Virus record (IMG/VR): IMGVR_UViG_3300028920_000062 | Location: 1 to 64,000 of that record | Strand: one strand, 5' to 3' | Origin: a virus | Length of the DNA: 64,000 bases | In this document: piece by piece, positions 1 through 51,100 of the stretch | Numbering within the stretch: position 1 is the first letter of the stretch | How the letters are laid out: each line of letters starts with the position of its first letter | Position numbers and translations under genes: made by a program | Notes under the pieces: generated by a model | What the model was told of the DNA's origin: nothing | Database searches by the model: none | Seen by the model: the letters and a program-made list of their open reading frames with translations, nothing else

Positions 1-106
1 GGACGATCTATCTAGAGAGATGGACGCATTTCAAAAGGGGGACGAACCTCAGCAGCCTGGACTCTCTCCTCAGAGCATTATCGACGCTGAGTTCGAAGAT
101 GAGTAA
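1..106 (+). CDS. C-terminal end of an unknown upstream gene (partial)
   Basis: An open frame enters from the left edge and ends at TAA 104-106, giving the last 34 residues of a protein. The tail is polar and acidic and ends in DAEFEDE; nothing in it identifies a function. Its stop codon overlaps the ATG of the next gene (TAATG), so the two are probably translationally coupled and belong to one operon. The 5' part lies outside the window. Confidence 0.6.
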   Translation, partial: DDLSREMDAFQKGDEPQQPGLSPQSIIDAEFEDE

Positions 107-3100
107 TGCGACACCGCGACCGGAAGTTCGTTAATGGAGAGTGGCTTTTTCAAGACAAGGAAGGAAATTGGAAACCAGGCAGGAAGGCAGGGAAGTTTGC
201 TTCCAAGAATGTAGGCCCCTCCCGTTCTCACATTCCCTGGGCTGATCCATCTGGTCCTGGTGAGCTATGGGCCCTCAGAATATCCAAAGCGATTGAGAAG
301 AATCCTGGAGCGGTCAAAAACCGCGCTCTCAGAGAACAGGCATTGGCTTATGCTGCTGTTGGGGGCTCTTTTGAAGCCACTGCTCCATTTGAATATTCAT
401 TTGAAACCGGTAAGAAGCTAAGGACTCGAGCGATTCCTTCTGAGAGGGAGGTTGCTCGGAGTCTTCGTCAGGGTCGGTATGAGCTATCTGGTTGGGCTAA
501 GAGGGTTATCAAGATGTCCTTGGGCCCCGAGGAGGCTCAATTTCTGCGAAGCCCCGAAAAATTTGATATTACCCCCTCATTTCTGGAGAGATGGGATAAG
601 GCTGCTAGAGCAAACAAGATCGTAAGGTCGGCAAAATTTCACAAATTATCGATGGAGACAATTCTGTTTCGAGCAGAAAGGGCAGGCGTTCTCTCTGAAG
701 TCCAAGAGATGCTTGGCACTAAGTCCCGCGAGGCTACCGCCTTAAAAAAGAGTATTCGCGGCGGAAAACCGTTTTTTGAGACTGCTATCAAATTTGCTCG
801 AGCAAAACCGTGGGCTGCCGCAGGTATTGGAATTGGAGTTGGAATTGCTGCTGCTCTTGCGATCAAGCCTCTTTCTTGGTTTTCTGGACGCGATGACGAC
901 TACAATACGATTGAGGGGCTTCCACACGGCGGCTTGGCCGGGCAGATGCGCTCTCAATTTACTGATTTCGGTAGTGGCTATCGTTCTTCAGATGATGGAT
1001 ATACGACATTAGACAAAATCGGAGGAGCGCTCATTTTTGCTAATGCCATAACAGCTCTTCCTAATATGGCCAGTAATCTAAAAATGGCTAGAGGCTATCA
1101 AAAAGGTTATATGACCTTTTACCATGGTACTCCTAACGCCAATGCCACAAAGCTTCTTTCGCAGGGACTAATTCCTGGGAATGAAGCCCAAAGACTTGCA
1201 GAAGAAGCTGAACTACAAGAAATTTTACGTCGCGCGAATCAAGAAAGAGCAAAGCAATTTAAGCTCTGGTTTGCAGCCCAAGAAGAAAGACTCGGTGGGT
1301 TTTCTGGTGAGGCTAAAACTCAATATGCCCAACATATCAAAAAACAAATTTCAAGTTTTAGGAAGAGCTGGCAAGAAGAGAAAGAGTTAATTATTAAAGG
1401 TTTTCGGCACAACAAAAATATGCACAAACCTTTTATTCCCGATGTTGCTCAAAAAGCAGCAATGCAAGATAAGGTAGGTCGCATATTTTTCTCTGCTCAT
1501 CCTTGGATTTCTAAATCTCATGCTGCAATGCAGGCTAATAAGGGACTTGGTCCTCTTGCGGCAAATATGAGGAAAATGGGGGGATTTTTAGGATATTTCC
1601 ATTCTTCTGTATGGAAGGCCCATGGATCTGGAAAGATTTTTGAATTTGCTCTTCCAATGAGTGAAGTAACTGCCCAAGTTAGTTTGGCTCCGCAATCCGA
1701 GGCCCTTTTGACTTCTTTAAAAATTCCTAAAGGAATTGCAAGCCGCTATGCGAAATTCACTTCCCTTTTTGCACAAACAAGCTTTGCGGCAGCAATTCCA
1801 ACTCTAGACCTTTCGAAAACAGGATCAGTAACTCCTGAAAAATTTTCTCGAGTTATTCCTGTAGAAGAAGGAAAGATTCTTTGGAATAAAGCTGAAAAAC
1901 TTGGTGCTTCGACAATTAAAGCCACTCCAAATTATTGGAAAGCAGCAGGAAGATTAGGAATGGCTCTTGTTCCATTGGCTACTATGGCCTTTGGACTTTC
2001 AGTCTTTTCGGGGAAGGATGATAGTTTCAATACTATTGAAGGACTGTCTGATCAAGGTATAGCCTCGAATTTACGACAGGACTTTGGTTCCGGCTGGCTT
2101 GGTCTTTGGGCAAGGGAAGACAGGAAAAGAGGAGGTTATCACAGGAGGAGAGGTCATACCCGCCGTGGCTACTGGTACAAGGGTCGTTGGGTAGAGAAGA
2201 AGTGGATCAAGAGTCATTTCGTCAAGCAGAATGAGAATGCCTTCGGCGCTCTGGCCGATAGAGGTGTTGCTGGCGAAACAAGGAAAGAGAACACTGATTT
2301 TGGTTCTGGGTTCAGATATCTGGACTTTGGAGGCCTGATTTCTGAGCAGACCGCTGATCAGAAGGTCACAGAGAACGAATGGAGGAAGATGCTGCGCACT
2401 GTGCGTATTGCACAGGACCAGGAGATCCTTCTTCAGATTCTGGATCGGGACGAAGCAAGAAGGTCGTTCAATAAGCAGCTGAGATGGCGTGACCAAGCAA
2501 AGTCCTCGAGAATAAAGAGATATTTGACAGAGCGTGAGTCGCTTGGAGCCTTCGGCTCGTTTACACCAGGAGCTAATGTTCTACAGGTTGGTGGCCTGGT
2601 TGACCCGCGAGATGTTGTTGCACAAGGATTCCTTCCTGTTGCTGCCGTAGGCAGTGATTCTCGGGAGCGAGCTATTGGCGAGATTCTGTATAACTGGCTA
2701 GACCCTAAGCGCGTTGAAGAAACTATTCTTCACGAAGGTCTTCACTCAATCTGGTCCAACGATATGGACCCGGTCCATAAGGCTAGATTTATTTCAGAAG
2801 CAGAAGAACAGCTGGGTGGGTGGTTTAAGAGCAGAGGGCCTGATGTAGAAGCTCTTGCCGGAAAGGCTCCTATCTATGCACAAGTGGTCCGAGCTGCCGA
2901 GGATACAAACAAACCTAAGTATGTTGAGTGGGTTGCAAATGAGATGTTTGCTCATCGTGGAGCGGCTCTTGCCTATTCTAATCTGGGTTATACGCTTGGG
3001 GAGAATCCTGCCCTAGATCGTATTGTAGGGGAGTATGTGCAACCAGGCCCTAGGAGGACCGTAGGAGCTCGCTTTGAAAATTTTGATCCCTCGGTCGCAC

Positions 3101-6100
3101 TGCAGGAGTATTTCGGACGCACAGAGTATTCTCGTGCGTTAGGAGAGCAAAAGGGAACCTTACTTCCGAAAGGGACGGGAGTGCAATTTTCGCGGGGCGG
3201 TGGTCTACCTACTGCTCTCATGGGCGTTCCAATTGACCCAGAGATTCTCGAGTTTCGAAGGAGGATGGATCAGCCAGGAGAGCGCTCTCGCATTCGCAGG
3301 CTAATTGAAGAGAGATCTGCCGAGTATCAGAAAACCTTGGGCTCTCTTGATAGTTCTGATTTCCTTCGCGGGGATATTGGGACGATAGAGGCCATCAATC
3401 GCAGACGCTCTGATCTCAAGGCAGTCAATTTAGACAGGTTCCAGATGGAGGTTGAGGACGCTGATACGATTGTCCTCAAGCGCCGTGGAATCATTCCTAG
3501 CATTAAATCTTTCTTCGGTTATGGCGATACCTATGTTCGCTTAGCAGGTATTGACGCACCTGAAGTAGAGGCTCATAAGGGTGATCCTCTTGCCCCATTC
3601 CGTATTTGGCAGGACCAGCCTGCTGGAACTAAGGCTACTTGGGCCCTAAAGAGAATGCTGGCCGAGCAGGATGAAGTTAAGTTAGTTATTTCTCAGGATC
3701 AAAAGACTTATGGTCGCTATCTCGGTGTTCTAGCTAATGAAGAGGGTACAAATATTAATATGGAGCTCCTTAGAGGAGGAGCTGTATCTGCACTACCATT
3801 TGGTCCAAGAAAGACAGATATTCTGCTTAGAGAGCAGGCTAGGGCAGCAGAAGAGACTGCGCGGGTCCACAGAAGGGGAATGTGGAGTTATGCTCGCTAC
3901 CAGGCTACTCATATCGCAGAACGCTATATCGGCAGGAATATTACTCACAATACCCTCACAAGACTAGATAAGCTCTCTGGAAATCTAACCTTGGGGGCAT
4001 ATGGTTCTTTCCTTAATAGCTTTGGGGCCCAACAAAGGGAGCTAACTTTTGAGGAGATTGCTCAAGCTAGAAGAATAGGGAAAGCTCTTAGAAAAACACA
4101 TGGTCCTCCTCCCATGGCTGGAGCCCAGACCTTTTCTGGCAAGGATGATGCCCATCTTCAGATAGAAGGGTTGAGTCACCAAGGTATTGCCTGGCAGTTG
4201 CGTCAAGCAATGACGGACTTTGGTTCTGGTTTCAAGGGCGCTCTTATTTCTCAGATTCCTAAGGCCTTGGGAGGAGTATCTGCTTGGAAGGGTCGTCATA
4301 CCGTGGCGGCTGGCGCTGCTGCTTTGGGGATGATAGGAGGAGTAGGAGCTCTTACTGGCGGATGGAGCTCTGAAAACGCTGAAGGCGACCAAGAGGCGTC
4401 TTGGGGTAAGCGCATAGCCACTGGTGCCGGCCTAATGGTTGGTGGGGTTGGTTTGGCTATTGGAGTACCTGCTGCAGCTGTGGCCAGATCTGCTTATAAA
4501 GCTGTTGCGTCTACATTAGGGAAGGAAAAGGCTCGCCAAGTTGCAAAAAATGCATTTGTCACCCAGCTTAAGGTTGGGGGCCGCTCTATCCTTGAGTTTC
4601 CAAAAACTGCTTTTAGAATTCATACTGACAAAGAAATAGTTGCACAAATGAGGCAAGCCGGAGCTGAAAGAGGACTTACCGGTATTCACTCTACTGCTCT
4701 TGGCCGAGGACTTGCTGTTCCAGCTAAATATATAGGAGAAAAGGCCGAAGGTGCTATTGAGCATACGGCTAGTTGGTTAGGCAAAAATTGGATACCTAAG
4801 CTAAAGGAGGGGGATCCAGCAGCCATTGCTCTAGCCGGCATGTCTGTTTTTGATGCTTATCATGCTGCCCATAGTGCATATGAAGGTGATATTGGCGGTG
4901 TAGCAGGAAGCTTAGCTAAGTTTGCTGGGGCTAAGTATGCCTATATGGGATGGCATCATAGGAAACCTATTGGTGAGTGGATTAAGAAGCAAAAGCTTGC
5001 AGATTATGCGGTCTATGCCACTGCAGGTATGCAGGCACTAGGGACTATGCGCAATGCTGCTCTCGAGGCTGCCCAGTACCATTTGGCCTATACAAGAACC
5101 GGGGTATCGGTTGGTCAGTATTATTCTATTGGAGCAGAGAAGTACGGAGAGACTTTCCTTCGTATGGCTAATCAGGCTAAGGATGATTATGCAAGAGCTC
5201 TCGGGCAACTTGATGACAAAACTATTCAAGCAATAATGGCTGATTCTCGTATTAAGGGATTGACTCAAGAATTTGGGAAGATATCTAGCGAGGCAAAGAA
5301 AACAGCAGAAGCTGCTAATAGGTTAACTAAGGAACAGTTTGTAGAGAACCTCAGAAAAGCACAGGGCCGAGCAGCCGAGGTTGGGCCAGATATTGAGCAA
5401 AAGACCTGGCTTGGCTCTAAGGCCGCTGAGCGTTTTGTTAACCAAGATATAGAACAGGCGTGGGGAGTTTTTGAGCAAACAAGAAAAGCCGCACAAAGGG
5501 CTAGTGAGGCAGCTGGAGTAATTAGTCCTGAAACAGATGCGGTTTTTTCTAGGATTAAGAACCTAGGGAAAGATTTTAATTTTGAAGATCTTTCAGAAGT
5601 AATTCCAAAAAGAGGTTCTGCTGTCAATGCATTTGATGGGATGCGTCACGGAGGACTTGCTGGGGAACTAAGGAAACAAAATACTGATTTTGGTTCAGTT
5701 GTAGATTTAGCTAAGGCTGCTAATCGGGCTCAGGAATTATATTTCCGTGGATTCAAGGAAATCTTTAAAAAGAGTGGACTAGACGTTTCTGCGATGGAAT
5801 TCAGCTCCAGTGTATCGTTACGTGGAGGGGGAACGATGCTCCAGGTGTTTGCTCGCGATCCTGGCGGCAAAACACTTATGCAGGCAGACCGGCTTTTATC
5901 CGAAGAGTCTGTAGAACTTTTTTCTGTTTTTCTTGCGAAGGATTTGCGGGGGAAGGGTATCGGTAGGCATTTTTATGATATTGAGCCCAGGCTTCTGCGG
6001 CAAGCGGGGTATGAGGCAGGAACTGTTGTCACTTCGCCAGCTGTTATCAATCCAGTTACTGCTAGATGGCAAATGAAGCAATACGGCGCTCAAATTGCTG

Positions 6101-7362
6101 CGTCAGAAGGGTATAGCGCAGAAAGATCTGCCGAATTAACCCGTCAGATTCTCGAGAAGAAGATAACTCACGAGACAATGCCTATGGCAGGTTTAGCTCT
6201 TGAAGGGAAACTGCCTGCTGCTCCTAAATTTTCTTCAACCCAGCCAAAGTGGTCTCAACTAACTGATGTTCCACAGCAGGTTCGAGCTACTGACGTAGAT
6301 GTAGAATCTGCCATTGCTAATCTTTCTAAGACTCAGGCTGGTTGGAGACAAATGGATGAATCCAGAAAGTTGTTGTCTAATCCTGTCAGGATCAAAGGGC
6401 TTAGAAAAAACTTTGCCGTAGATAGAGTGCCAGAGGCAGTTCCTACTCGTGGTTCCGCTTCAAATTCATTTGACGGAATGGGTCATACTGGTCTTGCAAG
6501 TCATTCTAGAAAGAAGAATACCGACTTTGGATCTCGATGGAATGCCCTTAAAGGTCTGGTCCGGGCTGGCGAAACATTTGAAAAGATGGTTGCCGGTAGT
6601 GAGTTTAAGGCTGCTCTTAGTGCAGCCAAACAGATAAAGCATATTAAGAAAGGTCCTGGTGGCGGGTTCTATTCAGATATTTTTATCATGGAAGGAACCT
6701 TCAGAGATCAGCAATTCAAGTTTGTTCGGAAGGTCGGCCACTTAGGAGAGCACGAAGCTAAGGCGCAAATGGCCGGCGCGCACGAAATGCTTCCTGATGT
6801 CTATTCTTTCAAGACTACTGCAGGGAAGGCCATAGAGACAGATAGGGTTAGGCTTCAGCAGGGTGTTATGGAGATGGAGTATTTCGAGGGGAAGACCTTA
6901 TCTGAGCTTCAGGCAGCTAAGGCCATTTCTGGTTCAGAGGTCAACAAGATTAGAGGTCAAGCACAGGAGCTTTATCAGAAAACTGTGCCAGGTTGGCAGA
7001 ATCCTGACATTCATCCTGGCAACATTATGATGGTTCCTACAGGTCAGAAAGGAACATATAATCTCGGCCTTATAGACCTAGGACTAGCTACTCCTACTGC
7101 CTCTACAGGAGCGCGGGTTGCAGAAGCCGCTGCTCGTATAAAAACAGTTGAGCTTCCTCTTCACCCCACAAAGGGTCCACAAAAGCAGGAAAGCTTACTG
7201 GAAAGTATGGTGCCTAAGTCTGAAAAGCAGAGAAGGTTATTAGAGAAGGTAGCAAGGCAGAAGGCCCAACAAGCTTTAGCTCAAAAGGCCACACAAAGAG
7301 CGACATCAGAAGCCGCTTTGCGTGGTGGAAAAGGACACAAAGCATTTAAAAGTAAAGGATAG
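106..7362 (+). CDS. Giant modular virion-type protein: ART-like, metallopeptidase, SNase, GNAT and kinase-like domains separated by six repeats
   Basis: 2418 residues. Order: basic N-terminus; hydrophobic segment 236-254; repeat 1 (259-292); ART-like domain about 336-600 (YHGT 339-342, FFSAHPW about 461-467, EE 587-588); hydrophobic segment 614-633; repeat 2 (634-664); Arg-rich stretch; repeat 3 (708-737); zincin-type peptidase (HEGLH 876-880, possible third ligand E946 in NEMFA); SNase domain about 1112-1265 with D1118/D1120, R1145, D1150, E1153 and R1204 matching the nuclease active site; repeat 4 (1343-1376); hydrophobic segments 1399-1419 and 1437-1459; repeat 5 (1836-1865); GNAT domain about 1900-2040 (RGKGIGRHF at 1948-1956); repeat 6 (2115-2145); kinase-like domain about 2186-2340 (DIHPGN 2301-2306, DLG 2324-2326). 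The start overlaps the previous stop. It resembles the polyvalent multi-enzyme proteins known from phages and conjugative elements, which are delivered with DNA. Delivery, and cleavage at the repeats, are inferences. Domain calls are by eye: SNase strongest, ART weakest. Confidence 0.85.
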   Translation: MRHRDRKFVNGEWLFQDKEGNWKPGRKAGKFASKNVGPSRSHIPWADPSGPGELWALRISKAIEKNPGAVKNRALREQALAYAAVGGSFEATAPFEYSFETGKKLRTRAIPSEREVARSLRQGRYELSGWAKRVIKMSLGPEEAQFLRSPEKFDITPSFLERWDKAARANKIVRSAKFHKLSMETILFRAERAGVLSEVQEMLGTKSREATALKKSIRGGKPFFETAIKFARAKPWAAAGIGIGVGIAAALAIKPLSWFSGRDDDYNTIEGLPHGGLAGQMRSQFTDFGSGYRSSDDGYTTLDKIGGALIFANAITALPNMASNLKMARGYQKGYMTFYHGTPNANATKLLSQGLIPGNEAQRLAEEAELQEILRRANQERAKQFKLWFAAQEERLGGFSGEAKTQYAQHIKKQISSFRKSWQEEKELIIKGFRHNKNMHKPFIPDVAQKAAMQDKVGRIFFSAHPWISKSHAAMQANKGLGPLAANMRKMGGFLGYFHSSVWKAHGSGKIFEFALPMSEVTAQVSLAPQSEALLTSLKIPKGIASRYAKFTSLFAQTSFAAAIPTLDLSKTGSVTPEKFSRVIPVEEGKILWNKAEKLGASTIKATPNYWKAAGRLGMALVPLATMAFGLSVFSGKDDSFNTIEGLSDQGIASNLRQDFGSGWLGLWAREDRKRGGYHRRRGHTRRGYWYKGRWVEKKWIKSHFVKQNENAFGALADRGVAGETRKENTDFGSGFRYLDFGGLISEQTADQKVTENEWRKMLRTVRIAQDQEILLQILDRDEARRSFNKQLRWRDQAKSSRIKRYLTERESLGAFGSFTPGANVLQVGGLVDPRDVVAQGFLPVAAVGSDSRERAIGEILYNWLDPKRVEETILHEGLHSIWSNDMDPVHKARFISEAEEQLGGWFKSRGPDVEALAGKAPIYAQVVRAAEDTNKPKYVEWVANEMFAHRGAALAYSNLGYTLGENPALDRIVGEYVQPGPRRTVGARFENFDPSVALQEYFGRTEYSRALGEQKGTLLPKGTGVQFSRGGGLPTALMGVPIDPEILEFRRRMDQPGERSRIRRLIEERSAEYQKTLGSLDSSDFLRGDIGTIEAINRRRSDLKAVNLDRFQMEVEDADTIVLKRRGIIPSIKSFFGYGDTYVRLAGIDAPEVEAHKGDPLAPFRIWQDQPAGTKATWALKRMLAEQDEVKLVISQDQKTYGRYLGVLANEEGTNINMELLRGGAVSALPFGPRKTDILLREQARAAEETARVHRRGMWSYARYQATHIAERYIGRNITHNTLTRLDKLSGNLTLGAYGSFLNSFGAQQRELTFEEIAQARRIGKALRKTHGPPPMAGAQTFSGKDDAHLQIEGLSHQGIAWQLRQAMTDFGSGFKGALISQIPKALGGVSAWKGRHTVAAGAAALGMIGGVGALTGGWSSENAEGDQEASWGKRIATGAGLMVGGVGLAIGVPAAAVARSAYKAVASTLGKEKARQVAKNAFVTQLKVGGRSILEFPKTAFRIHTDKEIVAQMRQAGAERGLTGIHSTALGRGLAVPAKYIGEKAEGAIEHTASWLGKNWIPKLKEGDPAAIALAGMSVFDAYHAAHSAYEGDIGGVAGSLAKFAGAKYAYMGWHHRKPIGEWIKKQKLADYAVYATAGMQALGTMRNAALEAAQYHLAYTRTGVSVGQYYSIGAEKYGETFLRMANQAKDDYARALGQLDDKTIQAIMADSRIKGLTQEFGKISSEAKKTAEAANRLTKEQFVENLRKAQGRAAEVGPDIEQKTWLGSKAAERFVNQDIEQAWGVFEQTRKAAQRASEAAGVISPETDAVFSRIKNLGKDFNFEDLSEVIPKRGSAVNAFDGMRHGGLAGELRKQNTDFGSVVDLAKAANRAQELYFRGFKEIFKKSGLDVSAMEFSSSVSLRGGGTMLQVFARDPGGKTLMQADRLLSEESVELFSVFLAKDLRGKGIGRHFYDIEPRLLRQAGYEAGTVVTSPAVINPVTARWQMKQYGAQIAASEGYSAERSAELTRQILEKKITHETMPMAGLALEGKLPAAPKFSSTQPKWSQLTDVPQQVRATDVDVESAIANLSKTQAGWRQMDESRKLLSNPVRIKGLRKNFAVDRVPEAVPTRGSASNSFDGMGHTGLASHSRKKNTDFGSRWNALKGLVRAGETFEKMVAGSEFKAALSAAKQIKHIKKGPGGGFYSDIFIMEGTFRDQQFKFVRKVGHLGEHEAKAQMAGAHEMLPDVYSFKTTAGKAIETDRVRLQQGVMEMEYFEGKTLSELQAAKAISGSEVNKIRGQAQELYQKTVPGWQNPDIHPGNIMMVPTGQKGTYNLGLIDLGLATPTASTGARVAEAAARIKTVELPLHPTKGPQKQESLLESMVPKSEKQRRLLEKVARQKAQQALAQKATQRATSEAALRGGKGHKAFKSKG
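880..981 (+). repeat. Interdomain protein repeat, copy 1
   Basis: Encodes residues 259-292 of the 2418-residue protein, directly after a hydrophobic segment. It starts FSGRDDDYNTIEGL and ends TDFGSGY. With copies 2-6 it defines a pattern FSG(K/R)DD..NTIEGL..(G)G.A...R...TDFGSG. Conservation is at protein level, not DNA level. Confidence 0.9.
2005..2097 (+). repeat. Interdomain protein repeat, copy 2
   Basis: Residues 634-664, again directly after a hydrophobic segment (614-633). It reads FSGKDDSFNTIEGL, then QGIAS, and ends DFGSGW. It is three residues shorter than copy 1 before DFGSG. Confidence 0.9.
2227..2316 (+). repeat. Interdomain protein repeat, copy 3 (degenerate N-half)
   Basis: Residues 708-737. 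The N-terminal half is reduced to NAFGALADRGVAG and lacks the SGKDD and IEG elements. The C-terminal half, RKENTDFGSGF, is well conserved. It follows an Arg/Lys/Trp-rich stretch and precedes the metallopeptidase region. Confidence 0.8.
4132..4233 (+). repeat. Interdomain protein repeat, copy 4
   Basis: Residues 1343-1376, between the SNase domain and a pair of hydrophobic segments. It reads FSGKDDAHLQIEGL, then HQGIAW, and ends TDFGSGF. Full-length type like copies 1 and 2. Confidence 0.9.
5611..5700 (+). repeat. Interdomain protein repeat, copy 5 (FDGM subtype)
   Basis: Residues 1836-1865, just before the GNAT domain. It reads RGSAVNAFDGMRHGG and ends NTDFGS. Similarity to copy 6 extends about 20 residues further upstream (RIK.L.K.F, then IP.RGSA), so copies 5 and 6 form a subtype. 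Confidence 0.88.
6448..6540 (+). repeat. Interdomain protein repeat, copy 6 (FDGM subtype)
   Basis: Residues 2115-2145, just before the kinase-like domain. It reads RGSASNSFDGMGHTG and ends KKNTDFGSRW. It is the closest relative of copy 5, including flanking sequence, which suggests a recent duplication of the linker. Confidence 0.88.
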
Positions 7363-7379
7363 TATTGTAGGATAAGGTT

Positions 7380-8312
7380 ATGGGAATACTTGGAACATTA
7401 GGAAGGGGAGCCTTTGGTTTAGTCAAAGGAGCAACTACAGGTGGCTTCGCAGCGCGAACTGCTATTGGTGCAGGTATAGGTGGTGTCGCTGGTGCGATTC
7501 AGGGTGACTATGCTAATCCGAATGCTCGGATTGAAAGCATAATTAAAGGGGCAGCTCTTGGAGCAACTGTTGGTGGCGCCCTTGGTTTAAATAAGAGTAT
7601 TGGTCGGATGATGGCTCCTCGAGCACTTCGAAAAAAAGCCGAGTCTGTAATTGGGAAACATGCCTTTGAAAAACAATGGTCTCATGTTCCTGCCTGGGGG
7701 AAAGATACGGCCTGGCGAGCTGAGCGCCAATCTGCTTTTCGTGAGGAATTTGCTAAGAAAGCTTCGGCTGAAGCTTGGAAGTATACTCCTACCTCTATGT
7801 TAGCTAAAAGCATCTTTAAGAACCCTATGGGTGCTGCCGGAGAAGGGTTTTTGGCCCGAAATAAACGCATAGGTCAAGAGCGACTAAGAAGCTATCTGGG
7901 AGATACTCTGGGAGCAGAAACATTTGTTCAAAGTCGTGGTGATATTGCTGCTAGGTATTCTCCTCTTGGTAGAGCTGCGGCTGCTCCTACACAAATGCTG
8001 TCTTCTATAGTTAACCATCCTTATCTAGCACTTGGTGGAGTTGGTATTGCAGCAGCGACATATGCTGGGGTAACGTCTCCTGCTTCTCCTACTCTGAGTG
8101 GCGATGTTGAGCGCGCACAAAAGGGACTTAATGCTACTACTAAAGTAAACTATAATACTCAGGCCATGGCAGCTCATACTCTCAGGGAGTCTGGAGTTGC
8201 CCCTATGGGAGCTATGGGAACAGTTCCACAAATGATGGGACCGATGCAACAAGCGTTTCAAAAGAGTACTTCTGGTGTAGTGCAAGGACTACATAGAGGG
8301 AGGCATGGTTAA
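7380..8312 (+). CDS. Glycine-rich membrane-type protein (310 aa), probable inner virion protein
   Basis: Not recognised as a named family. The N-terminal 70 residues form a glycine-zipper hairpin (AIGAGIGGVAGAIQGD, then GAALGATVGGALG) able to insert in or pack against a membrane. A second hydrophobic stretch lies near residue 220 (LALGGVGIAAATYAGV). The C-terminus is Met/Pro/Gly-rich and contains NYNTQAMA, echoing the end of the 1532-residue protein at 43579 (NYAMNTQNLA). The start has a GGATAAGG ribosome site and follows the giant protein by 17 bases. Its N-terminus parallels that of the gene at 9129. A role in genome ejection or as an ejected pore protein is inferred. Confidence 0.7.
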   Translation: MGILGTLGRGAFGLVKGATTGGFAARTAIGAGIGGVAGAIQGDYANPNARIESIIKGAALGATVGGALGLNKSIGRMMAPRALRKKAESVIGKHAFEKQWSHVPAWGKDTAWRAERQSAFREEFAKKASAEAWKYTPTSMLAKSIFKNPMGAAGEGFLARNKRIGQERLRSYLGDTLGAETFVQSRGDIAARYSPLGRAAAAPTQMLSSIVNHPYLALGGVGIAAATYAGVTSPASPTLSGDVERAQKGLNATTKVNYNTQAMAAHTLRESGVAPMGAMGTVPQMMGPMQQAFQKSTSGVVQGLHRGRHG

Positions 8313-9124
8313 TGGCTAGTGATAGAGGTATCTTTGCTCAGGCAAAAACTGGAGTGCAAAATGCTGGAGGTAAGTTAAGAGATTTTTCAGATCTAGCCAA
8401 GGCTGGTGCTCATAATACTGCTGCGGCTTGGCATGGCATGGGAAGAACTGCAGCGGGTGGAGCATTTCGTTCTGGCGTTGCTGAAACTTTTGGATTTGTT
8501 TATGGCGGTCCTAACAATAGTGATTATAGGGGTTTTCTTGGAATAAAGGACCACGACTTTAAGGGCAATTTCAGAAAGGCTCGAAATGTTCGTAGAGCTG
8601 CAATGAAATGGAAAGCTAGCCCTAACGCCTCTTTTTTACGAAAACAGGCTGTTGGTATGAAATATGCCATGAGGTCTGCTCCTGGTCGAGCTCTAAAGTC
8701 TGCGGTGGGTAGTATGGCAGGTAAGGCGATTTTTCCTGCCTTTACAGCTGTTAGTATGTATTCTGCTTACCAAGAAGGCGGTGTTGGTGCTGCACTGAAA
8801 GCTGGAGCTACAGAGGCTGCGGTCTGGGGTGGTCTGAAGCTGGCTGGAGCTATAATTGGTTCAACAACCACAGCCGCTATTGGTGGTGTTGCCGCACTGG
8901 GGTTTGGCTACCATGCTTTGGGAACAGCAGCTAAATCGTATCGAAAGGGTTTGCAAAATCTTGAGATGGGAGCTCCAGTGAAAGATCCTTATGGAACTAC
9001 TGCGACCCTCAGAGCTCGTTCGTTGCAGGCGTTGAATAGTTCGGCCGTTAACGGTAGAATGGCAATGGGGAATGAAGCGTTATTGATGCACGATAGCGCT
9101 TATAGTCCCGCCTTTGGGAGGTAA
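8312..9124 (+). CDS. Small hydrophobic, Ala/Gly-rich protein (270 aa), probable inner virion protein
   Basis: No family recognised. The start ATG overlaps the previous stop (TAATG) and is preceded by GGGAGG at about nine bases. Residues about 135-210 are strongly hydrophobic and Ala/Gly-rich (AAVWGGLKLAGAIIG, then TAAIGGVAALGFGYHALG), suggesting two or three membrane-type helices. The N-terminal half is basic and the C-terminus polar (RARSLQALNSSAVNGRMAMG). It is the middle of three consecutive glycine-rich genes behind the giant modular protein, so a shared role in the virion interior or at the host membrane is likely but inferred. Confidence 0.65.
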   Translation: MASDRGIFAQAKTGVQNAGGKLRDFSDLAKAGAHNTAAAWHGMGRTAAGGAFRSGVAETFGFVYGGPNNSDYRGFLGIKDHDFKGNFRKARNVRRAAMKWKASPNASFLRKQAVGMKYAMRSAPGRALKSAVGSMAGKAIFPAFTAVSMYSAYQEGGVGAALKAGATEAAVWGGLKLAGAIIGSTTTAAIGGVAALGFGYHALGTAAKSYRKGLQNLEMGAPVKDPYGTTATLRARSLQALNSSAVNGRMAMGNEALLMHDSAYSPAFGR

Positions 9125-9128
9125 GTAA

Positions 9129-9839
9129 ATGATTGCTGCACCACTTTTTAGAGGAGCTTTTTCTCGTGCTATTAGTAATACCGCTAAATCTGCCTGGGCA
9201 AATAGTGCGGTGAGAGGAGGTGTGTACGGTGCTGGAGCCGGTGGTCTGTGGGGAGCTATCTCTGATGACACATCTGTTATTGGTGGCGCTCTAATAGGGG
9301 CTGGACTCGGTGCTGGTGGAGCTAGATACGGCGGTAGCTTTAAAACCGGAGCACGTTCTTGGTGGAATACTGCGGCTGGACACTATGCTGGTGGATCAAG
9401 TGCTAGAACAGTTGCAGGGGCTCTTGGCAGAAGTTTCAAAAGCGGAGCTAGTCGTGCTGTAGATACAATGCGAAGCGATATTGCTTGGGCAGCAGGAAAA
9501 GTTGGCTCAATGTGGGAAGGGGGGTTTTCGAGAAGCGCCGTTAATGCAACAATGAATAATGCAAGAACTGCTGCCGCTAGTGCTGGTACTCGGGCAGCTG
9601 GCAAAGCCCGCGCCCAGGCAGCTGCATCTTCTGAAACAATTGCAAATACTGTTTGTGATTCAAACCAAGCATGCGCTGGCAGCAAAATAGCCTCTAATGT
9701 AACTAATAGCAATTGGCGAAGGAGCTCTGGAAGGCAACGTCGCCGCATGCAGCGCTCGGCAGCAAGAGCTGCATATAATATTCAAGGTGGAGACGCAGGG
9801 ATGATAAGCAGAGGGTATCTGCAAACCATGGGGCTATAG
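9129..9839 (+). CDS. Glycine-zipper protein (236 aa), probable inner virion protein
   Basis: The start follows a GGGAGGT ribosome site four bases after the previous stop. Residues about 25-60 (VYGAGAGGLWGAISDD, then IGGALIGAGLGAGGARYGG) form a glycine-zipper hairpin like that at the start of the gene at 7380, pointing to duplication. The rest is Ala/Ser/Arg-rich. The C-terminal part has a short two-Cys motif (CDSNQAC) followed by a very basic stretch (SSGRQRRRMQRSAARAA) that could bind DNA or membrane phospholipid. No enzyme signature is visible. Function unknown; association with the virion is inferred from the neighbours. Confidence 0.65.
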   Translation: MIAAPLFRGAFSRAISNTAKSAWANSAVRGGVYGAGAGGLWGAISDDTSVIGGALIGAGLGAGGARYGGSFKTGARSWWNTAAGHYAGGSSARTVAGALGRSFKSGASRAVDTMRSDIAWAAGKVGSMWEGGFSRSAVNATMNNARTAAASAGTRAAGKARAQAAASSETIANTVCDSNQACAGSKIASNVTNSNWRRSSGRQRRRMQRSAARAAYNIQGGDAGMISRGYLQTMGL

Positions 9840-9857
9840 TAGTCTCGAAAGACCATT

Positions 9858-11903
9858 ATGCCATTAGATCTCAATCAGTGTGACAAAGCGTGCATTAAGT
9901 GTATCAAGGGGTACAAAAAGAAGCACAAGCTGGTCGCTGGTCAATCCTTCGATATTTCTTGTGAGGGAATCCCAAGGTTCGGCGAACACATCAATATGCT
10001 TGGTTCCATTCCTGCGGACCAACAAAATACTGCTCTAAGTATTCTTGATCCTGTAACATGGGCTGCAGAAACTCTTGACTGGCATTGTCTGGATCCAGAT
10101 GGATCTGTATGGATGCGAAGAGATCCAGGAGAGTATACTAAGTGGAGAGAGCAGAATCCTGATGCTGACTTACTTGGCAACTCTCGCTACCACCGTCCGT
10201 ACCAGGCAGACATGCTTAGGTGTTCATCTCAGTTTAAAGCATTCCGCATAGGTAGACAGGCCGGAAAAACAGAGGCGATTGTTGTCTCGATGCTTTACCA
10301 CATGTTCGTTAAGCCCGGTATCCCGGAGGACGAAGGCTTCAAGATTGTTGTCATCGCTCCATACCAGGCACAAATTGATCTTATCTTTAGTAGGCTAGCT
10401 CAGCTAATCAGAAGCAACCCTGTTACCCAAAATTCCCTGCGCCGAAATGTAAAGGCTCCTGTATATACACTCGAGCTGTTCAATGGCTCCAGGGTTATGG
10501 GATTCACCGCTGGCACAAAGTCAGGTGGAAATGCAGACTCTGTTCGTGGTCAGCACGCACACATGCTAGTGTTCGATGAGGCTGATTACCTTTCTCCGAA
10601 GGATCTCGAGTCTGCTCTGTCGATCATTACCAACCATCCGAATGCTAGTGTATGGATGAGCTCTACTCCATCTGGTAAGCGAGAGAAGTTCTTCCAGGTA
10701 TGTAGTTCCAAAGAGTGGAAAGAGTTCCACTACACCTCTCGAGTCAACCCAATGTGGGATGACAAGAAGGAAGCGCTATTCAGAAGCACGCTCACTGACC
10801 TTGCGTTCCAGCACGAAATTCTTGCTGAGTTTGGAGAGCAGGAGGAGGGTGTGTTCCAGAACGTCCTGGTGCAGCTGGCTAAAGAAACCTATAGCTACGG
10901 TGATATTCCTCACATGAATACTTGGACCTACACTATTGGTGTAGATTGGAACGACACCAAGAATGGCACCTGTATCGTAGTGCTGGGCTTTGATCCCAAG
11001 AGACAAGTTTTTATTGTGGTAGACCGACATACCGTTTCCAGAGAGGGCTGGACTCAGACGCTTGCTATGCACAAAATTGTCGAGCTCAACAGGATATGGA
11101 GGCCCATTACTATCTATATCGACTCTGGCTTTGGTGGCACGCAGTGGGAGATGCTTAGGAAGTTCGGCTATGACTCACTAGCTGATCCGTCGAAGGGACC
11201 TGCTCACCCTGATTCTAGATTACGGGAGATTGTGAAGAAGTACGAATTTGGTAGCAGTGTTGAGGTGTATGACCTGTTTACAAAACAACCTATCAAGAAG
11301 CCGGCCAAATCGTTCTTGGTTGAGAGTACTGTGCGCAGGTTTGAGGCTCAGGATATCAAATTCTCAGATACTGACGAGGTTCTTGAGGCTCAGCTGCTTG
11401 GTTATATCGTAGACCGTGTTACTGCCACCGGTGTCCCTGTCTATAAGGCCAATGACGAGTCTTGTGGAGATCATGTCCTGGATGCATTGATGTGTGCTGT
11501 AATTGGCGTTACTATGGAGGTCTCTCCGCTGGGTAAGCCAAAGTACAGCAGTAAGATAACCCTGACGCCTTATTTTGGAGAAAAGGTGGATGCTGATATC
11601 TTTAGCGGTGATACAGTGCTTAACCACGAGAATCCTAGACGCAAAGAAGAGAAGGCTCGAGAAAAGGCTAGGCCGAATATGAAGAGAACGGACGGTGTTG
11701 AGAAGACCAGTCTTCTTGGGACCGAGAATAGTCTACCCGCACGCAATATGAATGATAGCCAGGTTAGGCCTTGGGACCATCCTGGATTCCTGAGAGATGA
11801 GCCAGCGCCTAGGGTACGTACGTTGAGTGAGGCGATCGATGAGGCTTACAAGAGGCAAGGTTTGCGCAGACCTACTAGAAAACCTCGCCGTAAGAATATA
11901 TAG
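9858..11903 (+). CDS. terL: Terminase large subunit (packaging ATPase-nuclease)
   Basis: 681 residues, a usual TerL size. It powers DNA packaging into the prohead through the portal and cuts the concatemer. ATPase: Walker A-like GRQAGKTE 132-139, Walker B LVFDE with D240/E241, then the coupling motif SSTPSG. RNase H-like nuclease: acidic residues at D363 (IGVDWND), D422 (YIDSGFGG) and D538/D542 (GDHVLDAL). The first 35 residues hold C8, C12, C15 and C35, a possible zinc-binding module not typical of TerL. The C-terminal ~110 residues are basic and low complexity. No small terminase gene is recognised beside it. The ribosome site is weak, but the start is well placed. Confidence 0.95.
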   Translation: MPLDLNQCDKACIKCIKGYKKKHKLVAGQSFDISCEGIPRFGEHINMLGSIPADQQNTALSILDPVTWAAETLDWHCLDPDGSVWMRRDPGEYTKWREQNPDADLLGNSRYHRPYQADMLRCSSQFKAFRIGRQAGKTEAIVVSMLYHMFVKPGIPEDEGFKIVVIAPYQAQIDLIFSRLAQLIRSNPVTQNSLRRNVKAPVYTLELFNGSRVMGFTAGTKSGGNADSVRGQHAHMLVFDEADYLSPKDLESALSIITNHPNASVWMSSTPSGKREKFFQVCSSKEWKEFHYTSRVNPMWDDKKEALFRSTLTDLAFQHEILAEFGEQEEGVFQNVLVQLAKETYSYGDIPHMNTWTYTIGVDWNDTKNGTCIVVLGFDPKRQVFIVVDRHTVSREGWTQTLAMHKIVELNRIWRPITIYIDSGFGGTQWEMLRKFGYDSLADPSKGPAHPDSRLREIVKKYEFGSSVEVYDLFTKQPIKKPAKSFLVESTVRRFEAQDIKFSDTDEVLEAQLLGYIVDRVTATGVPVYKANDESCGDHVLDALMCAVIGVTMEVSPLGKPKYSSKITLTPYFGEKVDADIFSGDTVLNHENPRRKEEKAREKARPNMKRTDGVEKTSLLGTENSLPARNMNDSQVRPWDHPGFLRDEPAPRVRTLSEAIDEAYKRQGLRRPTRKPRRKNI

Positions 11904-11921
11904 TGTATCCGAGGTACTATC

Positions 11922-12341
11922 ATGGCTCTGAATATCTACGAAGAAGCTAATCCTAGTTCTGCGTTTAGCAAAGATGCGACATTCTCTAATCCTTTTTCTG
12001 TGGCACTAAATGGAGCTTTGGGCGATGTCTATGAACAACGTTTGTACGTTCGTAATGACGATGTTGCTCGAGTCTATACAGATGTTACCGTTACACCTAT
12101 TGATGGCGGCGATAATATTGTAGATGGAACTAATGGCTTTAGCTGGAAGGTTATTGCCGGTGACCAGAAGCCGCTAGAAGAGCAATGGGATTTACAATCA
12201 CCTGGAAATAGTGCTAATGTTGGCAATCTAAGTGATACGAATACCTATCTGCCGTTCTGGATTCGCGTCCAGGTTCCAGAGGGAGCCGACGTCACTTCTT
12301 ATCAGGGCGTGCAACTAGAAATCGAAGCAACAGAATCCTAA
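11922..12341 (+). CDS. Small beta-rich structural protein (139 aa), unknown
   Basis: No family recognised with confidence. The sequence alternates hydrophobic and polar residues as in an Ig-like beta sandwich (QRLYVRNDDVARVYTDVTV, then FWIRVQVPEGADV, then QLEIEATES) and has no helices, cysteines or signal peptide. It sits between terminase and portal-module genes in a conserved head region, so a small head decoration or virion accessory role is plausible. The start is preceded by GAGGT. Confidence 0.6.
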   Translation: MALNIYEEANPSSAFSKDATFSNPFSVALNGALGDVYEQRLYVRNDDVARVYTDVTVTPIDGGDNIVDGTNGFSWKVIAGDQKPLEEQWDLQSPGNSANVGNLSDTNTYLPFWIRVQVPEGADVTSYQGVQLEIEATES

Positions 12342-17864: not shown

Positions 17865-20261
17865 GTGAGTGGCAACAAACTAAAATTCCGAGAAGCTGTC
17901 CGGTTTTCTCTTACCGATCAGGCCTTGGTAAAGGTCCAGGACGATTATGCTGGTGCCTTTAAGCCCCCTGCAGAGGGAGCTCAACATGAGAGCGGTCTAG
18001 GAACTACTGACCAGCAGCAAACATACAATGGTCTGCTAGTACGTATTGCTGCTACTCATGCAGGTATCATTACTCGTAACAATGGATTCTATCTGCCTGA
18101 TAAGATGAAGAAGGGCGCGGACTCGTTTACAAGTAATTACAGTAAACCCGTACTCCTTCACCATCAAGATAGCAACGACCCGGTGGGTCGTATTGTAGAA
18201 GCCCAGTATGTAGATACCTCAGGTATTGTCCAGGACGCTTATAACCTAGCTGAGGGCCTACGTGTCGTTGACAAGATGGGCAAAGAAAAGGGAGTTATTA
18301 CCGATACCTTGTTAAAGGACTTTGTTGAGGGGAAGATGCCGTTTGGTATGCAGATAGATACAGTCTGTAGTCTTCTCCGAGATAGTGTCCTTGAGGACGC
18401 GGGGTACCAGGGTTTGGGTTATATTTCAATTGTAGCCCAGATTTCTCACAGAGATGCGATTGAGAAGCTATTAGACGGTCGTTATTTAACTGGCTCTGTT
18501 GGTGCTACTACTGACAAAGCCGTATGTTCAATTTGTCGACAAGACTGGACGGATGCAGGGAAGTGCGAACATAAGCCAGGTGCTATTTATGACGGAGCCA
18601 AGTGCTTTATTATTGCTGGTGCTCTTGACTATGATGAGTACTCCTTTGTTAACGTTCCAGCTGATAGACATTCCAAGGTTTTAGAGCTACACTATAACGG
18701 CATTCAAGATAGTATTGAAATCGCTGAAGAATATTCGGGCAGAATCTATGAGGTACGTCTGGGATTTCCTCAGTACGATTCTGCTGCTAAGGAGGATGAA
18801 GGAATGGCCGAAGAGAAGAAAGATCCCAAGGAAACTAAGGATCAAGAGGCCACCATCAAGGATGAGGTAATTACCGATTCTGAAACTCCTGAGTCAGCTG
18901 CAGACAAGAGGACTGAGGAGAACAAGGATACCGAGCCTGAAGTTCAAGATACCACAGATACTCAGGAAGAAGAGGAAGTAATTCAGGACGAGGCCCAGGA
19001 AACCGACGTTGAGGACACCGACGTTGAGGACGCCAGTAAGAAGAAGAAGAAGAAGAAAAAGAAGAAGGGTGAATATGAAGAGGGTGACGAGGATATGGAT
19101 GACTCTGTCAAGCCAGATCCTGTTACTACTTTCATGGACACCACAGAACTTACTGATGAACTCAAAGATCAGTTCTACGATGAGGTGTTCTGGCCAGAGG
19201 TCGAAGCTGCATTTGAAGATGGCGAGTTTACTCTAGCACAAGCTGGAATTGCTAAGCTCGAGGAAGCTAAACTTGACTCTGAGAAGAGAAAGAAGCTTGC
19301 TAAGTCTACTTTCTGTGGCCCAGATCGTTCATTCCCTGTTCCAGATTGCGCACATGTGACTGCTGCTCGCAGGCTCATTAATCGCTATAAGGGAGAAGGG
19401 GACAAGAGCAAGATTCTTGCATGTGTATCACGCAAGGCTAAGGCAATGGGATGCAGCGTATCTTCTGAGAAGAAGAAGGACACTGTTGAAAAGCCTGCCG
19501 AAACCGTTCAGGAGGACCAACTCCAGCATGGTCGCGTAATGCATATGGTGATTGCTGCCCTTGAGGAAGCTCAGCATTTCTCACCGGACGCAGTCCTTGA
19601 TGAAAGCGAAGTTAAGATGCTTCAGAGCATTTTGAAGAGACTGGCAACTATGGTTGGCAAAGATGCATTTTCTAATGCAGCTGTTGCCGAACAGCTAGCC
19701 TCAAACCCAGAATGTGAGCAAGCTCTTACTGACGAAGTGGTCAAACTAGAGGATACAGTTGGTGATCTGAGAGACCAACTGGACGCACTCCGAAAGGAGT
19801 ACTCAAGTCTATTCTCAGATATGGAGATACTGCAAGATACTCTTACTGAGGCAACTGCCGCCAACAGAGCTTTTAAGGAAGAAAAGCTGTCTATGCTTAG
19901 AAGTCTCAGAGATGGCAAGGCCGAAGAAGAAGAAAACTTTACTGAGATGTCGGACTCAGACCTGCAAGCTGAGATCGACTCAGTGTTGAAGCAAGTTGAC
20001 ATGACTAAGATTGTTGATAAGCTTGGTGATGGAATGGCTAGGGAGCCACAGGGAACTGTGGATGGTCCCGAAATCATTCAGGACGATGGCGAAACCCAGA
20101 AGAGTTCTGTTTCTAATCTCGCAACTCCCGACGAACTGGTAAGGATTCAGGAGCATGTTCAAAAGCTTCTGTTTACCCCAGGTGGGCGCGAGAAGGCAGG
20201 AGCCTACGTCAGGCGTCTACAGGCGGAAGGAAAACTTCCGCTAGACAGCGAGACTAATTAA
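17865..20261 (+). CDS. Prohead serine protease fused to scaffold (798 aa)
   Basis: Residues about 1-300 resemble phage prohead proteases: PVLLHHQD with H99/H100 as candidate catalytic His, and LTGSVG with S211 as candidate nucleophile. An inserted zinc-finger-like cluster (C221, C224, C234, H236) follows. Residues 305-400 are an acidic low-complexity linker ending in ten lysines (392-401). A compact Cys-containing patch (CGPDRSFPVPDC, C484-C495) and a long coiled coil (about 620-690) follow, typical of scaffolds. A fused protease-scaffold is known in other phages (lambda C/Nu3 logic): it builds the prohead and then degrades it. The start is GTG 17865, one base after the portal stop, so coupling is likely. 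Confidence 0.82.
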   Translation: MSGNKLKFREAVRFSLTDQALVKVQDDYAGAFKPPAEGAQHESGLGTTDQQQTYNGLLVRIAATHAGIITRNNGFYLPDKMKKGADSFTSNYSKPVLLHHQDSNDPVGRIVEAQYVDTSGIVQDAYNLAEGLRVVDKMGKEKGVITDTLLKDFVEGKMPFGMQIDTVCSLLRDSVLEDAGYQGLGYISIVAQISHRDAIEKLLDGRYLTGSVGATTDKAVCSICRQDWTDAGKCEHKPGAIYDGAKCFIIAGALDYDEYSFVNVPADRHSKVLELHYNGIQDSIEIAEEYSGRIYEVRLGFPQYDSAAKEDEGMAEEKKDPKETKDQEATIKDEVITDSETPESAADKRTEENKDTEPEVQDTTDTQEEEEVIQDEAQETDVEDTDVEDASKKKKKKKKKKGEYEEGDEDMDDSVKPDPVTTFMDTTELTDELKDQFYDEVFWPEVEAAFEDGEFTLAQAGIAKLEEAKLDSEKRKKLAKSTFCGPDRSFPVPDCAHVTAARRLINRYKGEGDKSKILACVSRKAKAMGCSVSSEKKKDTVEKPAETVQEDQLQHGRVMHMVIAALEEAQHFSPDAVLDESEVKMLQSILKRLATMVGKDAFSNAAVAEQLASNPECEQALTDEVVKLEDTVGDLRDQLDALRKEYSSLFSDMEILQDTLTEATAANRAFKEEKLSMLRSLRDGKAEEEENFTEMSDSDLQAEIDSVLKQVDMTKIVDKLGDGMAREPQGTVDGPEIIQDDGETQKSSVSNLATPDELVRIQEHVQKLLFTPGGREKAGAYVRRLQAEGKLPLDSETN
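19038..19067 (+). repeat. AAG microsatellite encoding a ten-lysine run
   Basis: Ten Lys codons, nine AAG and one AAA, in the linker of the protease-scaffold gene between strongly acidic stretches. The tract could slip during replication or make ribosomes pause. The frame is intact here. Confidence 0.9.
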
Positions 20262-48186: not shown

Positions 48187-51100
48187 ATGGCTACTGACAC
48201 AGGGTATTTTCAGATCAACGACCTCATATTTCAGGTCCCACCGGAAGCAATTAAAGTCAATAGAAGGGCTGTGAACAATTATTGGCAGACTCTACGTACA
48301 CGTTCGTCCATCAAGCTATCTTCGGGGTACTCTATCTTAGACATTGAAGTGTCGATGAAAGTCATTGCTGAGGGTAACGAGCTAGAAAAGCTTTCTTGCC
48401 TTGTTGCTCAGTTGCGCGTAACTCCGTTTTGTTGGATAAAAAACCAGTATATTAGGAACACTGTCTTGGGTGGGCAGACTAAACAGGCCATGGTTCTTGC
48501 TCTCAAACAACTGGAGATACGCAAGTCAGCTGGAGAAGATACCAACATTATTGAAGTTTATATGCTTTTCTCTTGGTTTAATTATCTGCCTTATATGAAG
48601 GACTGGCTTTATAAGGAAGATATTTTTGTTCCCAAACCCGTTGAAGATCCTCGCAAATCAAGGGCTTGGCGTATTATGTATGCTGCCGAGAAGATGAGAG
48701 GGCCTTATCAGGTTCCTCCAAGTCTTTACTCTAATGCAGTTTTAGATCTGCGGCAGTTTATGACTGTTACCAAAAAGAAGTTTAAGCAACTTAAACAAGA
48801 TGTAGCTTTTCTAAAAGAGTTTAGAGGACAAATAGAGGCATCTCTTCCAAAGAAAGGAACTTCTGAATTTCCCGGGGTAGTAGATAATATTATCCAGTCT
48901 CTTGTAAAAAGTGCAGGGAAAGAGAGAGTTCATCGTTCGTTATCCAGCGTTTTTGGGCATACGACAACTGCTGTAGGCGAAGTGGGAGTAGAAGAACTTC
49001 TCCATCTTATTGATGTCGATATTACTGCTAAAGGACAAGAGGTTGAATCCTATAACAAAGTATACGAAGCAACAACGCGGGGTTGGGAAGTTGCTAAATT
49101 AGCAGACGGAACGCCCATTGAGATTGTTGGTAAAGCTGATGCAACTATTGATGAGAAGAGTGATCTGTCTGGGGAAGATGATCAGATATTGATGGAGTCT
49201 AATCGTGTTCTGAATTTTGAGAAGGCAGGACTTATTATTACCGGTGTCTCTGTTAGCTTTGAGAACATTCTCGCAACTATGCCAGTTATTGGGCATCCAT
49301 ATCCCTCTTTTCAGCACATAGGAAGCATAGATGCCGTAGTGACACTGTCTTTTGTTACGACTTCTGAGAATTCTATACAGGCAATTTCTAATTTTTATAC
49401 AATCTGTCAAGATCAGTCTCGTAAGTTTAGGCAGGTTCCCGAGGGGATCAGGAACGTTGTTATCAGCAATGACATCGTTAATATGTGCGGTCTTCATGAG
49501 TTTCTTATTGAGGATTTAAGACAGGGAACTATGCCTGGCCAGCCGGGGACCTATTATGGCGAACTCGTATTGGTCAATAACCCGCTTGATGCCAAGACCA
49601 AGGAGGGTCTGGTGCTCTCTAGTGATTTTATTACAGACAATACTTTAAGACTAAAGGTTATAGAAATTTTAGACCAGTATGTAAAGTTTAATGATCAGGA
49701 TATCAGAACAGATATAGATAATGAGACGTCAGAATTCGGGAAGTTCGTGGGTGTTGCTGATAAATCAATAGAAGTCTTGGTCCGCAGTCCATACGATCAG
49801 GTTAAGCCTGGGGGCTCTGGGAAGCATATAGCAACTAACCAGGGGGTCCAGCGTAAGGCTACTGTAATTAGCCCATATGGTGAAGGACTGTCCAAAAAGG
49901 GTTTTGAGGATTTTCCTGCTACTAATGCGTATTATATAGATAGTGAGAACAATAAGAGAATTAGTTCTGGTGGTTATTATTCGTTCAATAATACTTTTGA
50001 TAATCGCCAGGCCGCTCTCAGGCATTTCGTTGTTCGCTATATGAATTCTTTAACCAAGGTGTTTTCTTCACTGTCATCTCTCTTCATCAAGGACTGGCAG
50101 GGACATAACCTTGGAATAACCAAAGGAATGGTTGACCATAATACCATTTCGCTTTTTACTTTGACAGATGATCAGGTACCCGGAATTGGCAGACTTCGCA
50201 AGGACTTAATTGCCACTGCAAGGAAATTCAGAAGAAGAGGAAAGTTTAACTTAAATCCGTCATCATCAACTGACACCGAAGGTATATCATCTCGAGGAGA
50301 AATGTATCAATTTCTTTTTGATTCTTGGAACGAAATGAAAGATCTTCCGCTTTCTGACCAGCGCCGAAAGCATTCGATAATACTTGAAAGATTAGACTTT
50401 TTTGCCGCAGAAGCCCTTAAGGAAAAGAAGTTCGGTGGTAACCCACATGCCATTAACAGTACCAGCTTTCTTCACTTTAGAGATGCTTTTATAGATAAGT
50501 ATCTCAAAGACTTTAGGAAAGAGATATTGGATCTTACTCGAGATATTCAGAAGTCTCAGGTATTTGACTTAGATATTTTTCAGCCAGTTAAGGATCTTTA
50601 TAAAGAGGCTGGTCTTCCCTCTAAGGGGAATAATTACCCGGACTTTCCTCTGACTCAGGTGATTGAGATTCTAAGACAACGAAGTGACTGGGATAAAATA
50701 AAGGCTAAGATCGAAGAGCGTAGAGATCTGGCTGGTCTTGCAGTATACAATGTTTCTCTTGAGGCTCTAATTAATCCTGACTTCTATCTATATAATAAGA
50801 CAACAGATTCTACTTCTGATCTAATTAGTCGTCAGCTTATTAATGAAGCTAAAGAGGCGATCAAATTAACACAAGGACAATTACAGGTAGACGCCGAAGC
50901 TGACTGGGTTACCAATACATACAACAGACATATTATTGGGACTACTCTTGCAGAACGAATAACAAATGATGTTAAGAATGGAACCAGCAATAAAGACAGA
51001 GTTGAGGAAATTCGAGCACGGAGAAAAGAGCTGGAAGAGACAGGAAAAAATCCAGAGCTTATTAATTATCTAAATCAGCGCGACAGGCTTTTGGAAGAAG

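Follow-up and report, generated by a model that had tools for sequence, protein, structure and literature searches.

Polyvalent proteins are thought to deliver the first strike of a phage, and how their unrelated enzymes are packed, delivered and possibly separated is the question raised by one locus in the window, which here means the whole 64,000-nucleotide stretch analysed (positions 1 to 64,000 of IMG/VR record IMGVR_UViG_3300028920_000062, a viral record of 78,981 bases that is linear and probably incomplete). The locus is an open reading frame (ORF) at 106..7362 on the plus strand. It opens with an ATG that overlaps the stop codon of the upstream gene through TAATG, and its frame is intact over 2418 residues. 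Two marks of a polyvalent protein were found for the encoded chain, which carries several disparate domains and whose gene lies among late or virion genes. The chain is divided into modules by six copies of one linker, and comparison with relatives shows, at the level of sequence, that gain, loss and exchange of modules take place at these linkers, so that the linker behaves as a cassette boundary.

The six linkers are located at 874..990 (res. 257-295; 71.0 bits), 1999..2106 (res. 632-667; 45.2 bits), 2224..2322 (res. 707-739; 29.2 bits), 4126..4242 (res. 1341-1379; 64.6 bits), 5599..5697 (res. 1832-1864; 35.5 bits) and 6436..6549 (res. 2111-2148; 37.2 bits), all on the plus strand. The scores come from linkers of other phages: the profile was built from 81 of them, and the window and its close kin were excluded to avoid circularity. 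This profile recovered all six copies (29-71 bits, i-E 1e-11 to 1e-24), while the top linker score among 500 shuffles of the window protein was 4.2 bits. The original prediction of an intact 2418-residue chain with six copies of one repeat was thus borne out. A DNA pattern of the linker occurred twice in the window versus 0 expected. A seventh, decayed copy is probably present between the zincin and staphylococcal nuclease (SNase) modules (3145..3204, plus strand, res. ~1014-1033), where L088 and other proteins have a true linker.

The linker has the consensus FSGKDDxYNTIEGLxHxGxAxxxRxxxTDFGSG[WY] and is about 38 residues long. Among the aligned copies FGS is invariant, and G, A and R are nearly so at positions spread along the motif. 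A variant, HPGSEGxGAQSxRxHSEFGSGW, is predominant in L071 and stands alongside the usual form in L092; it was noted in L071, L092 and L114. When IMG/VR was scanned with patterns and the 46 whole records were then searched with the profile, the linker was found in 47 ORFs of 46 viral records. It was confined to one ORF per record, with a single exception that has two such ORFs. These contigs are metagenomic fragments. Searches of Pfam and PHROG returned no family matching the linker. A tblastn search of 50,697 phage records and 72,556 plasmid records with a short consensus query found no linker, and the whole window protein likewise gave nothing in phage and plasmid records. Two bacterial phyla were sampled with 791 genomes, none of which has the linker, a weak negative obtained with no positive control. 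Searches of open-access papers found nothing relevant on the linker motif or on linkers of polyvalent proteins.

The linkers sit between modules (n-1 linkers for n modules, never at the chain end), with a median linker-to-linker spacing of 233 residues. When 42 non-redundant proteins were cut at their linkers, 143 segments of at least 40 residues were obtained. Single-linkage clustering (E<1e-4), which may merge or split families, resolved at least 17 module families as clusters with several members, whose order and number vary between chains. Of the points where similarity between chains ended, 49% fell at a linker in both partners, versus 3.9% with shifted linker positions. Because the linkers themselves are alike, this test was repeated with the linkers masked, and similarity still ended at linkers in 40% versus 8% by chance. 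On the tree of the terminase large subunit (TerL), the SNase module requires 7 changes, the kinase module 8, and the GNAT module 4 in 4 carriers. The domain content of relatives therefore agrees with the original prediction that the repeat bounds modular cassettes, as modules are swapped exactly at the linkers.

The same boundaries appear in DNA. In the closest relative of the window, L002 (= L081), TerL is 91% identical. The DNA of the two phages is about 78% similar across nucleotides 2080-4229 and about 30% similar beyond both ends. This homology starts in the core of linker 2 (nucleotide 2080) and stops in the core of linker 4 (nucleotide 4229), within D-F-G-S-G. Three modules are absent from L002 (ART, hydrophobic, GNAT), and its linker halves are fused directly across the gaps. 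Outside the ORF, similarity covers the upstream gene to the start codon (nucleotide 108) and returns just past the stop codon (nucleotide 7364). Because the two phages are alike on both flanks, the ORF is, by this alignment, a hypervariable island within an otherwise similar genome. The L002 arrangement is present on two records (L002 and L003), so an assembly error is unlikely to account for it; the window arrangement is present on one contig.

A linker that marks breakpoints might be conserved mainly as a DNA recombination handle for module swaps, with no specific role as protein. The breakpoints within linker cores, the fast module turnover on the TerL tree and L092, which carries two nearly identical linkers in one protein, would fit this explanation. 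However, codon identity is barely above what codon usage predicts: between proteins, codons match at 40% of identical linker residues versus 37% expected from the usage of each gene, and within proteins the values are 46% versus 42%. At the DNA level, linkers share only about 50% identity, and the serine of FGS is encoded by both TCN and AGY. Since codon matching is near expectation and both types of serine codon are used, selection on the linker acts mainly on the peptide. A pure recombination handle is disfavoured by the codon data and is very unlikely. In the AlphaFold2 (AF2) model of the C-terminal part, linkers 5 and 6 are mostly of low confidence, in contrast to the well-folded kinase, and the alignment there is thin; the low confidence is compatible with an exposed linear element.

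Which enzymes the linkers separate was judged module by module. The N-terminal module (106..873, plus strand as are all modules below, res. 1-256) has no enzyme assigned. It clusters with 16 other N-terminal segments (cluster C1) and ends in a glycine-zipper hydrophobic stretch, which precedes linker 1 with a hydrophobicity of 1.82; its DUF883_C-like zipper match (E=2e-4) is under the cut-off. The ART-like module (1060..1995, res. 319-630) is a tentative assignment from its motifs, YHGT (res. 339) and FFS, which are kept in L073/L104, and from a very weak match to the Tpt1/KptA profile (E=2.4). The next module (2323..3141, res. 740-1012) is zincin-like by motif, which is weak evidence: HEGLH (res. 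876) and a downstream WVANE, at the position of the glutamate ligand, are conserved in three proteins, and Pfam and PDB profile searches gave no zincin match. The AF2 model of the ART/zincin region had a mean predicted local distance difference test score (pLDDT) of 35 and gave no usable fold. The SNase module (3535..3888, res. 1144-1261) is a firm assignment by sequence, with a Pfam PF00565 match at E=1.6e-15 and both catalytic motifs, DAPE (res. 1150) and YGR (res. 1202). The family search with the Gly-rich/hydrophobic module (4243..5598, res. 1380-1831) returned only the module itself.

The module at 5710..6195 (res. 1869-2030) is likely a GNAT acetyltransferase. It has the R-G-K-G-I-G loop (res. 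1948) and is common to L074, L105 and L082, and a profile of the four sequences matches a PDB acetyltransferase (E=0.004). The C-terminal module (6550..7095, res. 2149-2330) is well supported as a kinase by modelling: the AF2 model (pLDDT about 90) has a protein-kinase-like fold with a Foldseek match to PknB (E=1.1e-7), and the alignment spans about 170-180 columns of PDB kinases that are ~265 residues long. Kinases typical of polyvalent proteins lack the C-terminal subdomain. DIHPGN (res. 2301) and DLG (res. 2324) lie in this region, and the module belongs to a cluster of 22 linker-bounded segments, many of them recognised by Pfam as protein-kinase-like. The original prediction had named five enzyme domains with their motifs. 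All of the motifs are where it placed them; SNase and kinase hold as domains and GNAT is likely, while zincin and ART stay at the level of motifs. The fold prediction that it proposed for each segment succeeded for the kinase and in part for GNAT, and was uninformative for zincin and ART. Hydrophobic segments, which it placed between the domains, were found as membrane-like stretches directly before linkers 1 and 2 only, plus the one long module at res. 1380-1831. Nucleases are among the other modules of the family: L071 has an exonuclease of DnaQ/PolB type towards its N-terminus as well as a PD-(D/E)XK module that is Cas4-like (res. 164-393 and 828-970).

The position of the gene is conserved. 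For 41 of the 47 linker ORFs, a terminase on the same strand follows at a distance of 1.2-3.6 kb, in the order small glycine-zipper-type genes, terminase, portal and protease. In the window, three small glycine-zipper-type genes (7380..9839, plus strand) follow the polyvalent gene; the middle one follows it in 41/47 cases and the other two in a subset. Next is the TerL gene (9858..11903, plus strand; phrog_2, E=2e-37; 34% to Moorella phage MTATph1). A predicted prohead protease/scaffold gene (17865..20261, plus strand) is 43% identical over 87 residues to KLEB27-3 gp014, which is annotated as a prohead protease. The window also encodes a major capsid protein and a tail sheath. By its capsid, prohead protease and sheath genes, the window is therefore from a contractile-tailed phage, and the location of the multi-enzyme protein beside head and packaging genes was correctly predicted.

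Six linker ORFs (L077, L085, L091, L095, L109 and L113) had no terminase-type neighbours in the stretch examined, and record G016 has linker ORFs of both kinds. Most of the terminase-free proteins share a C-terminal region of 525-1600 residues; when searched in L091 and L109, it had no match in Pfam or PHROG. In L113, the linker protein (5058-12287) has matches to intein-splicing and LAGLIDADG models at res. ~1306-1738. An apparent intein-like insert was also seen in the portal gene of L004 (21093-22913; CFDNQTQILTDSGW..., from translation only). Another protein of the window (48187-54210, 2007 residues), a virion/tail protein, has matches to endolysin and to metallo-endopeptidase, and it also matches phrog_8809, a family likewise matched by the SNase module.

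Many of the chains close with a basic tag of about 27 residues, located at 7267..7347 in the window (plus strand, res. 2388-2414; leave-one-out E=4e-4). The test, which started from a simple regular expression, recovered the tag by leave-one-out in 25 chains out of 41, once per chain and in every case among the last 40 residues. The tag profile gave no significant score over the other ORFs of the stretches, including other virion proteins. The small Gly-zipper protein at 7380-8312 ends in ...GLHRGRHG, which is vaguely tag-like; its score with the tag profile was not significant.

The explanation we favour is a head-packaged, co-injected modular effector chain in which the linker is a candidate processing site, and as a whole we hold it at slightly under an even chance. 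The chain would consist of enzyme modules aimed at host or defence targets, set in a fixed scaffold of module, linker, module, linker, and usually closed by the C-terminal tag. It would be packaged in the head, perhaps through this tag, and enter the cell together with the DNA. By analogy with the P1 Dar proteins and N4 virion RNA polymerase (vRNAP), packaging and injection of the chain are probable. Each linker would then be recognised by a phage protease, with the prohead protease at 17865-20261 as the first candidate, which cuts the chain there into separate effectors. Processing is the single most likely role of the linker, although this assignment stays tentative. That a polyprotein system of tailed phages has its code in the linker, with head carriage by a shared tag, injection, release by protease and effector swap through linker-bounded cassettes, is possible but rather doubtful. 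The support for the favoured explanation, drawn from sequence, comes from synteny before the terminase, shuffled modules, linkers placed only between modules, boundary statistics, DNA breakpoints, conservation at the protein level, the low model confidence over linkers 5 and 6, the encoded prohead protease and the single tag. Late-gene location and injection have been described for polyvalent proteins, and in P1 both DdrB and DarA undergo processing and packaging (PMC5512222); P1 DarB is reported to bear a capsid-targeting sequence (PMC9024508). Several points weigh on the other side. The profile scan found the linker in no other head protein of the 46 records, which counts against processing because a prohead protease should also cut capsid or scaffold. 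Prohead proteases usually cut much shorter motifs, such as A-X-E (PMC10052503), and a constraint over 38 residues is long for a cut site. Linkers are slightly more similar within than between proteins (0.54 versus 0.51, p=0.0085), so there appears to be little sign that they co-evolve with a phage-specific protease. Some chains have no detectable C-terminal tag.

The length of the motif and the spread of its invariant residues would suit a docking or assembly motif as well, each copy binding a head-internal partner (a glycine-zipper protein or scaffold) while the chain is packed and threaded intact. A conserved small-protein neighbour follows the gene, and N4 vRNAP is packaged unprocessed (PMC5512222). 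However, the partner is hypothetical, the structure of the linker is not confident in the model, and a tag for each module would not require the linkers to be absent from chain ends. Docking is on the unlikely side, close behind the processing role. A mechanical spacer that aids unfolding and stepwise threading of the long chain through the tail would agree with the regular spacing and with the hydrophobic stretch that about half of the linker proteins have ahead of their first linker, but it leaves the invariant FGS and the near-invariant G, A and R unexplained, and we consider it distinctly unlikely. The zincin module might cut its own chain at the linkers, as the HEGLH of the window chain and the auto-processing by metallopeptidase (MPTase) domains proposed generally for polyvalent proteins (PMC5512222) would allow. 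Only 3 non-redundant linker proteins have this zincin, and about 10 have an HExxH of any kind. Because it is found in so few linker proteins, the zincin is no general explanation of the linker; as a general linker protease it is disfavoured and extremely improbable.

One conserved linker at nearly every boundary defines the limits of the modules and predicts sites of cutting or binding. The linker is also a search key for new injected effectors, with 17 shared module families of which several have no recognised relative. The suggestion of an undescribed system goes too far, since polyvalent proteins built from these domain types have been known since 2017 (PMC5512222); the linker family and the shared C-terminal tag appear to be undescribed.

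Among known systems, the large myoviruses 0305phi8-36, KLEB27-3, ME3 and MTATph1 have a related terminase (TerL 30-34% identical), and KLEB27-3 also has the protease in the same gene order. On the TerL tree these isolates fall outside or beside the linker group on long branches, and tblastn found no linker-bearing protein in the phage-collection records, this group included. The prohead protease gp245 of SPN3US, one of the phiKZ-like giant phages, processes packaged and ejected head proteins, but its cuts follow a short A-X-E motif and for the most part take off N-terminal propeptides (PMC10052503). N4 vRNAP is likewise a giant multi-domain chain that is packaged and injected; it includes an MPTase domain, and its C-terminal region is needed for packaging. 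In contrast, it is packaged unprocessed and built on an RNA polymerase, and no inter-module linker of this type was found described for it. P1 DarA, DarB and DdrB resemble the favoured explanation as head-packaged antirestriction proteins, some of them processed. P1 is temperate; no linker-bounded modules were found reported for the Dar proteins, and the packaging signal of DarB is at the N-terminus, versus the candidate C-terminal tag here. The class of the window chain is that of the polyvalent proteins of Iyer et al. 2017 (PMC5512222), which are also giant multi-enzyme chains beside late genes with mosaic evolution, and which have MPTase, ART, kinase and GNAT domain types in common with the window chain (MPTase and ART here by motif only). 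That paper does not describe a linker or linker repeat, whereas here nearly all module boundaries carry a linker of one family and most chains have the C-terminal tag in common.

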